From: Halosolutus gelatinilyticus
Lineage (GTDB): Archaea; Halobacteriota; Halobacteria; Halobacteriales; Natrialbaceae
Direction: 5' to 3'
NCBI RefSeq assembly: GCF_023028105.1
Contig: NZ_CP095492.1
Coordinates: 434,001 to 498,000 of the forward strand
DNA length: 64,000 nucleotides
The stretch's first letter is position 1; each line of letters starts with the position of its first letter. A program made the translations under genes and the position numbers. The notes under the pieces are model-generated. The model saw nothing but the letters and a program-made list of their open reading frames with translations. It did no database searches and was not told where the DNA came from. This document shows, in pieces, positions 19,660 to 20,548 of the stretch.

Positions 19660-19905
19660 ACGCGGGGCTCGTCGGGAACGGTGATAAATCCCGTGATCGC
19701 GGACACGTCAGGGTGTCACGATTCGGCCCCAGGATCGATCCCCTTCCCGTCGCTCGGACGAGAACCCGCCTGCGACTGGCAGCACGGCTCTTCGGACGGG
19801 TACAATAGCGCCTAGACAGCCGAATCCACTGGGTAGTCGACGCTGCGGTCGGTCGGCGATGAGCCGTTCTCGCGGCCGCGATCGAGGCCCGATCGCGAGA
19901 TTCTC

Positions 19906-19922
19906 GTTCCCCTATAGGGAAC
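19906..19922. promoter_or_regulatory. Palindrome GTTCCC-N5-GGGAAC, copy 2
   Basis: Exact inverted repeat with spacer CTATA. It lies about 250 bp upstream of the ThuA-like gene and abuts TTACA palindrome copy 2, so the two presumed regulators would bind side by side. Confidence 0.7.
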
Positions 19923-19923
19923 A

Positions 19924-19943
19924 TTACAACCGTACTATTGTAA
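19924..19943. promoter_or_regulatory. Tripartite palindrome TTACA-N3-GTAC-N3-TGTAA, copy 2
   Basis: Exact match to the consensus. Its start is 27 bp from the start of copy 3, giving a tandem operator pair. Confidence 0.75.
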
Positions 19944-19950
19944 CGATGAG

Positions 19951-19970
19951 TTACACGAGTACTACTGTAA
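19951..19970. promoter_or_regulatory. Tripartite palindrome TTACA-N3-GTAC-N3-TGTAA, copy 3
   Basis: Exact match to the consensus; second member of the tandem pair upstream of the ThuA-like and dehydratase genes. Confidence 0.75.
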
Positions 19971-20234
19971 ATCGTACGGGTGGAACCGCCGCTGCAGATT
20001 CGAACCACAGAGGGACAGATGACCCACTCGCCGGATTTCGGGCGCATCGGGACAGATGGTCCCGATATCGGCGCATTCGCGGTGGGAAAATCCCGAATGC
20101 CGACGGGACGTGCGAACCGAGCGACAGTTCGGACGCGTTGGCGAGACGGACGAGGAAACCGGCCCGCGGGGCGGTGAACGCCATCGTTAGATCGAACTAC
20201 CAGGCGTGAGCGACGGCCGTTCTCCCGCAAAATC

Positions 20235-20251
20235 GTTCCCAAGTCGCGAAC
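20235..20251. promoter_or_regulatory. Near copy of the GTTCCC palindrome
   Basis: GTTCCC-N5-GCGAAC, one mismatch in the right arm. It is also the centre of a second perfect repeat, AATCGTTC-N9-GAACGATT (20231-20255). Confidence 0.45.
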
Positions 20252-20366
20252 GATTCGGCCGGCATCGAAAGAGTCGGTGCGGTGACCGTCGCGAGGGCAT
20301 CAACCCGACAGTACCCGGCTAATCGGCAGTTCACTCGTCGATTGCCGCCCGATCGCGGCGCGTTCT

Positions 20367-20383
20367 GTTCCCGTCACGGGAAC
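20367..20383. promoter_or_regulatory. Palindrome GTTCCC-N5-GGGAAC, copy 3
   Basis: Exact inverted repeat with spacer GTCAC, about 135 bp upstream of the TATA box of the dehydratase gene that starts at 20549. Confidence 0.7.
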
Positions 20384-20516
20384 GATCGACTACCACACCG
20401 ATCGCAGAGCCGCCTCCGCGCCGTCGGATGGGCAGCAAGGGAGCCCAGGAAAAATCCCGCTACGATCGGCGCTCCGCGCGAAATTCGTCGAGTGCGCGCC
20501 GGGGAAGTACTCGGAT

Positions 20517-20526
20517 GATTTATAGG
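20517..20526 (+). promoter_or_regulatory. TATA box of the acid-sugar dehydratase gene
   Basis: A TTTATA core in GATTTATAGG is centred about 27 bp before the ATG at 20549, which supports that start and a leaderless transcript. Confidence 0.65.
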
Positions 20527-20548
20527 TCAGGCCGCGAATGGACGAGGT

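Follow-up and report, generated by a model that had tools for sequence, protein, structure and literature searches.

Why should two unrelated palindromes occur together in the same three intergenic regions of a haloarchaeal pectin island, and which regulators would read them? The window examined here, a stretch of 64,000 nucleotides (C2:434001-498000), lies on the 562-kb replicon of the 4.76-Mb genome of Halosolutus gelatinilyticus and carries a pectin/uronate island. Its degradation genes encode pectate lyases, GH28, GH4, and GH10 and GH11 xylanases; an Epimerase-family protein, enolase-superfamily dehydratases, DHDPS/KdgD-like proteins, aldehyde dehydrogenases, Opp-type ABC transporters, UxuA and UxaC are also encoded, a set that appears compatible with the oxidative galacturonate route. 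Orthologous islands occur in Natrialbaceae, including Haloterrigena turkmenica, Natrinema zhouii and Natronococcus sp. CG52. The only regulator recognized by Pfam among the scanned window proteins was an IclR protein, with an N-terminal HTH_IclR and a C-terminal IclR_C domain, both above the Pfam cut-off; its PDB relatives are 1mkm and KdgR.

The original prediction from this sequence was that the two palindrome families form a two-factor circuit, possibly of a repressor and an activator, coordinating distant transcription units, in which either the IclR protein binds one family and a regulator encoded elsewhere the other, or one regulator uses two modes. We consider it probable (about 0.7) that the three regions control one pectin/galacturonate regulon, with the IclR protein acting on the first palindrome (F1) and a more general regulator on the second (F2).

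Results

Genes were called with a simple home-made codon-usage caller, and genome-wide work consisted of pattern searches and individually retrieved stretches. The genes next to the three regions (1705-2427, 19660-20548 and 43326-43962) were as follows.

10-1704, minus strand: thiamine-pyrophosphate enzyme gene, downstream of region 1 (Pfam TPP_enzyme N/M/C)
2428-3366, minus strand: DHDPS-family (KdgD-like) gene
18931-19659, minus strand: ThuA-domain gene (Pfam PF06283), putative divergent target of region 2
20549-21790, plus strand: enolase-superfamily sugar-acid dehydratase gene (Pfam MR_MLE_N/C), putative divergent target of region 2
43963-44763, plus strand: IclR-family regulator gene, KdgR/BhcR-like, 266 aa (Pfam HTH_IclR and IclR_C)

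F1 was defined as the exact pattern GTTCCC-N5-GGGAAC and F2 as the exact 20-bp palindrome TTACN4RTAYN4GTAA. As predicted, both families had exact matches in each of the three regions, and at 19906-19922 (F1) and 19924-19943 (F2) a single base separates them.

Region 1
1833-1849, GTTCACACAGCGCGAAC: F1-like, 20.5 bp centre-to-centre from the F2 at 1852-1871
1852-1871, TTACATCGGTACGAATGTAA: F2
1989-2005, GTTCCCCAGGAGTGAAT: degenerate F1-like, aligned in every ortholog compared
2209-2225, GTTCCCGATAGGGGAAC: exact F1
Region 2
19906-19922, GTTCCCCTATAGGGAAC: exact F1, 19.5 bp centre-to-centre from F2
19924-19943, TTACAACCGTACTATTGTAA: F2
19951-19970, TTACACGAGTACTACTGTAA: second F2, 27 bp from the first
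20235-20251, GTTCCCAAGTCGCGAAC: F1-like
20367-20383, GTTCCCGTCACGGGAAC: exact F1, 182 bp upstream of the dehydratase ATG
iclR upstream region
43549-43565, GTTCTCCCTCGCCGAAC: F1-like dyad, upstream half of a composite module, 20.5 bp centre-to-centre from F2
43568-43587, TTACAGTCGTATGGTTGTAA: F2
43606-43625, TTACGGTCGTATGGGTGTAA: second F2, 38 bp from the first
43912-43928, GTTCCCTTCTGGGGAAC: exact F1 in the iclR promoter, predicted operator, abutting BRE/TATA

The window thus holds five exact F2 sites, against about 0.1 by chance. Within the window alone, the probability that the F2 gaps are the same three as the F1 gaps was 0.003 when gaps were weighted by length and 1.5e-4 without weighting. 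Across 22 genomes, which are related so that the counts are not independent, 42 of 56 intergenic F1 sites had an F2 within 700 bp, and 7.5 ± 2.7 were expected when F2 was placed randomly in intergenic DNA. The whole genome contains five exact F1 sites, four in the window and the fifth within a predicted gene (C1:395253); therefore, every intergenic exact F1 in the genome co-occurs with F2. A whole-genome check on whether the motifs usually occur apart was accordingly one-sided: intergenic F1 was never found without F2, but most F2 loci of the genome lack F1. The prediction that neither family occurs in the other gaps held for exact sites but not for weak look-alikes, which were present at 47047-47066 (imperfect F2-like, TGACAAGGGTACGCCCGTAA, in the gap 46768-47660), at 8334-8350 and at 43719 (both F1-like dyads). 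The dyad at 8334-8350 (GTTCGCGGATCCGGAAC) lies upstream of minus-strand Opp-type ABC permease genes and is a possible weak further target.

The F1 of the iclR promoter directly precedes a TATA-like element (CTTATG, 43932-43937). We searched 125 genomes for the IclR protein; 41 had a match, and about 22 had orthologs with 61-81% identity. F1 was found at -50 to -35 from the iclR start, against the BRE/TATA, in 22 of 23 orthologs (2 of these weak), that is, conserved in the promoter of the presumed cognate regulator. Written as GTTCC-N7-GGAAC (17 bp), the four exact sites have the arms of IclR group-1 operators (GKTYC-N7(8)-GRAMC, 17-18 bp), for which the published consensus is GKTYCRYW3-4RYGRAMC with a 5-7-5 geometry (PMC8222616). 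From the promoter position in orthologs and the group-1 geometry, we infer that F1 very probably serves as operator for the window IclR protein. Because F1 abuts the BRE/TATA, its position suggests that IclR represses its own gene by blocking TFB/TBP. No TATA box was found beside the region-1 F1, and that site was therefore rejected as a BRE/TATA blocker; a TATA-like element for the thiamine-pyrophosphate enzyme gene lies on the minus strand at about 1736-1741. The window IclR was also rejected as an ortholog of proteobacterial KdgR, since it scored 120.3 bits, below the equivalog cut-off of NF011671 (275 bits).

The pectin iclR gene was present as two close copies on one replicon, about 15-280 kb apart, in G024:C6, G025:C57, G051:C4 and Haloterrigena salifodinae L153. 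The iclR ortholog of Natrinema sp. SYSU A 869 (NZ_CP082247.1:22149-22933) is in two pieces and unannotated.

Scoring of the sequence around F2 with an F1 matrix revealed a feature absent from the original prediction. In all three regions, an F1-type dyad lies 19.5-20.5 bp (centre-to-centre) from an F2, the pairs being 1833-1849/1852-1871, 19906-19922/19924-19943 and 43549-43565/43568-43587. Among the 68 F2 sites of 22 islands, 27 had an F1-type dyad at 19.5 or 20.5 bp, compared with a mean of 0.5 at each other offset, and allowing one mismatch in F2 raised the number of composites to 37. The region-1 module was kept in orthologs, with its F1-like half as GTTCGCGnnnnGAGAAC; the F1-like half at 43549-43565 was kept as GTTCCCnCTCGCCGAAY. 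In iclR promoters, the spacing within the module was constant and the distance from the iclR start varied from 260 to 811 bp upstream, and the module was not detected in several iclR orthologs. Fixed helical spacing of two different sites combined with variable promoter distance is the pattern of a composite operator for a global and a specific regulator. As 20 bp corresponds to two helical turns, the F1- and F2-bound dimers would lie on one face of the DNA. The 27-bp F2-F2 spacing of region 2 recurred in three other genomes (G104, G024 and G018), and orthologs kept a 36-38 bp spacing between the two F2 sites upstream of iclR. Helical phasing between the proximal F1 and the distal composite was not clearly evident (R 0.35 at 10.5 bp, n=15).

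Elsewhere in the genome, none of 44 F2 sites had an F1-like dyad at 19.5/20.5 bp, and an averaged test for dyad symmetry next to F2 outside pectin islands was negative. Hence, the idea that every F2 site has a partner dyad 20 bp away was rejected, and the composite spacing is claimed for the pectin regulon only.

F2 itself extends far beyond the island. The genome contains 48 exact sites, 33 of them on the 562-kb replicon and none within predicted genes; 26 relatives contained 6-48 each, and reversed-pattern controls were near zero throughout. The genes adjoining F2 in the genome encode IclR proteins, sugar-acid dehydratases, GH2, GH3, rhamnogalacturonan lyase, sulfatases, sugar oxidoreductases and solute-binding proteins. 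Nineteen of 30 IclR genes (identified by IclR_C domains) were located within 1.2 kb of an F2 (2.8 ± 1.6 for random positions), and in three other genomes an IclR gene adjoins most F2 loci retrieved. The two-factor proposal is therefore modified: two distinct cis elements do mark distant units of one regulon, but the circuit is not private to pectin genes, because F2 is general at carbohydrate/IclR loci with about 50 sites in the genome. F1 would then be the pathway-specific partner and F2 a general element of carbohydrate/IclR loci.

Could one regulator nevertheless read both palindromes, the window IclR or IclR proteins generally binding F2 as a second type of site? The F1-F2 spacing equals that of tandem IclR dimers, which typically bind on one face 19-21 nt apart (PMC8222616). 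IclR genes adjoin F2 sites, and across 88 genomes of the family the F2 count followed the number of IclR candidates (rho 0.76), not that of RdfA (rho 0.19). Yet F2 was found in genomes without a close ortholog of the window IclR, and it keeps a single sequence although the IclR paralogs encoded beside it differ in their recognition helices. F2 also falls outside both published IclR consensuses, GKTYC...GRAMC for group 1 and TGRAACAN1-2TGTTYCA for group 2 (PMC8222616), and equally IclR-rich clades lack it: g35, f3-g36 and f8-g49 average 13-19 IclR candidates per genome with fewer than one F2. The two-mode option of the original prediction is thus unlikely. Since IclR-rich clades can lack F2, the palindrome would need a factor of its own, confined to some haloarchaeal clades. 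We infer that F2 is recognized by a different, clade-wide factor and not by the window IclR, in agreement with the predicted regulator encoded elsewhere; this factor could be one dedicated global IclR paralog. A distant haloarchaeal genus of another family (g76; G330, G376 and G261) likewise has F2 at very high frequency, with 14-36 sites, and offers a useful comparison for finding the factor. Literature searches for the F2 sequence or for a haloarchaeal composite operator returned nothing matching.

Locus-specific, group-1-like 17-bp dyads were 5.6-fold enriched within 80 bp of F2 (13 versus about 2.3 expected), a pairing that is suggestive only, because the averaged dyad test was negative. 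The fixed distance between F1 and F2 in the pectin regulon and the recurrence of F2 beside many IclR genes suggest an undescribed general co-regulator of carbohydrate use. Whether a global carbohydrate regulator binds F2 and works together with many IclR paralogs, each locus bearing F2 and its own dyad, is in our estimate an evenly balanced question. Such an arrangement would be a combinatorial code, similar in its logic to that of CRP and specific regulators; the 19 IclR genes near F2 and the dyad enrichment are hints in its favour. A dyad family GTTTC-N7-GAAAC was observed at L032:9219 and 9323, L013:2501 and L016:2550, twice flanking one F2, and is a possible operator for a further IclR regulon. 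At L012:2480-2570, near-identical dyads (GTGCACTAACRGTGAAC) lie on both sides of one F2, about 30-36 bp off, and this dyad-F2-dyad group is upstream of an enolase-superfamily dehydratase.

The presence of rdfA genes near several F2 sites raised the idea that an RdfA/SMC-related system binds F2. In its general form, F2 would be a chromosomal mark (loading/partition-type, nucleoid or SMC-like, e.g. for RdfA and its SMC-related neighbour) merely co-located with sugar loci. The strictly intergenic position of F2, its many convergent gaps and its proximity to rdfA in several genomes are consistent with such a mark. However, the F2 count does not track the RdfA count in the 88 genomes, some genomes have several RdfA copies yet no F2, and both the link to IclR genes and the fixed 20-bp distance from F1 favour transcription control. 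We regard a chromosomal mark as very unlikely, and RdfA/SMC was rejected as the F2 binder on the copy-number comparison.

The rdfA genes (rod-determining factor, PF21811) near F2 were located at L010:4856-5464 in the genome studied and at L156, L160, L163 and L150:6896-7543. In two cases F2 lies 79 bp upstream of the rdfA start; in Natrinema zhouii, the DHDPS-family gene and the thiamine-pyrophosphate gene are separated by an rdfA-SMC-related pair.

Of the F2 loci in the genome, roughly a quarter to a third are convergent non-coding gaps, and a plain promoter-operator model therefore falls short. Such gaps of 0.3-1.3 kb between convergent genes were observed at L003, L007, L008, L017, L026, L027 and L032, and some convergent-gap F2 sites in this genome are accompanied by IclR-type dyads. 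A search of the convergent F2 gaps for hidden genes yielded nothing convincing apart from a short ORF in L009. In several relatives, the region-1 F1/F2 pair still adjoins the 3' end of the DHDPS-family gene even where a convergent gene, a transposase or rdfA comes next, and in several genomes the gap that holds the pair has no gene evident downstream. The region-1 pairs and convergent F2 sites may reflect small transcripts or remote action. That the F1/F2 pairs drive unannotated small transcripts, instead of or besides the flanking protein genes, would account for their fidelity to the DHDPS-family gene next to convergent or unrelated genes and for F2 in long convergent gaps without a good ORF. 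The region-1 alignment, however, contained no conserved RNA-like block besides the sites, and no TATA signal was found at a fixed distance around F2; we consider this explanation quite unlikely. The promoter geometry suggests remote action of the modules at units other than iclR.

Discussion

As described above, the evidence from sequence and conservation favours a regulon in which IclR and a general F2 factor act together. An IclR dimer at an F1-type dyad and a dimer of the F2 factor would, in all three regions, sit 20 bp apart on the same face and may bind cooperatively. IclR on F1 would repress its own promoter by blocking TFB/TBP. The distal composite, which could act 260-810 bp from the iclR start, would activate, or conditionally repress, the promoters of iclR and of the genes for the thiamine-pyrophosphate enzyme, the ThuA-domain protein and the dehydratase. 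The trigger at this composite may be a pectin-derived sugar acid that binds IclR, and the F2 factor may report the general carbon state.

Some bacterial composite operators combine a global with a specific regulator, for example CRP with AraC or MelR. The module described here shares with them a general element at fixed helical spacing from a pathway-specific site but differs in its archaeal TBP/TFB promoters and in the F2 sequence, which is neither a CRP nor a CcpA site; no CRP-like candidate for the F2 factor was identified. The motif of TrmB, a partial palindrome of 19 bp, probably differs in sequence from F2. F2 is a palindrome of 20 bp, and several haloarchaeal clades lack it. The haloarchaeal TrmB regulon likewise involves a global carbohydrate regulator whose sites are numerous in the genome (PMC10817205).

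With IclR group-1 systems, F1 shares the GTTCC-N7-GGAAC arms, the 17-bp geometry, an autoregulated iclR gene (here predicted) and a neighbouring dyad at 19-21 nt (PMC8222616). Unlike in those systems, the 20-bp neighbour is a different palindrome and not a second IclR site, and the composite can be positioned several hundred bp upstream. The haloarchaeal IclR activators XacR, GacR, RhcR and MscR are encoded in and control sugar-degradation clusters (PMC11519228), and the genomic setting of the window IclR is consistent with such a role, although its cluster concerns pectin/galacturonate. An F1-type operator with an F2 partner was not found described in the haloarchaeal IclR literature searched. 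The proteobacterial KdgR regulon (motif RWWGAAACGNCGTTTCAKKA) similarly places pectin/oligogalacturonate genes under IclR-family control (PMC8222616) but differs in operator sequence and arrangement; here the promoter is archaeal and a second partner site is present.

These findings provide a testable handle, namely the F1-20 bp-F2 module and a palindrome that is clade-wide and has about 50 sites in the genome. Control by a general regulator combined with a pathway-specific one is textbook biology in bacteria and, to our knowledge, poorly documented in archaea. If the general code is true, the substrate regulons of many uncharacterised haloarchaeal IclR proteins could become predictable from sequence.
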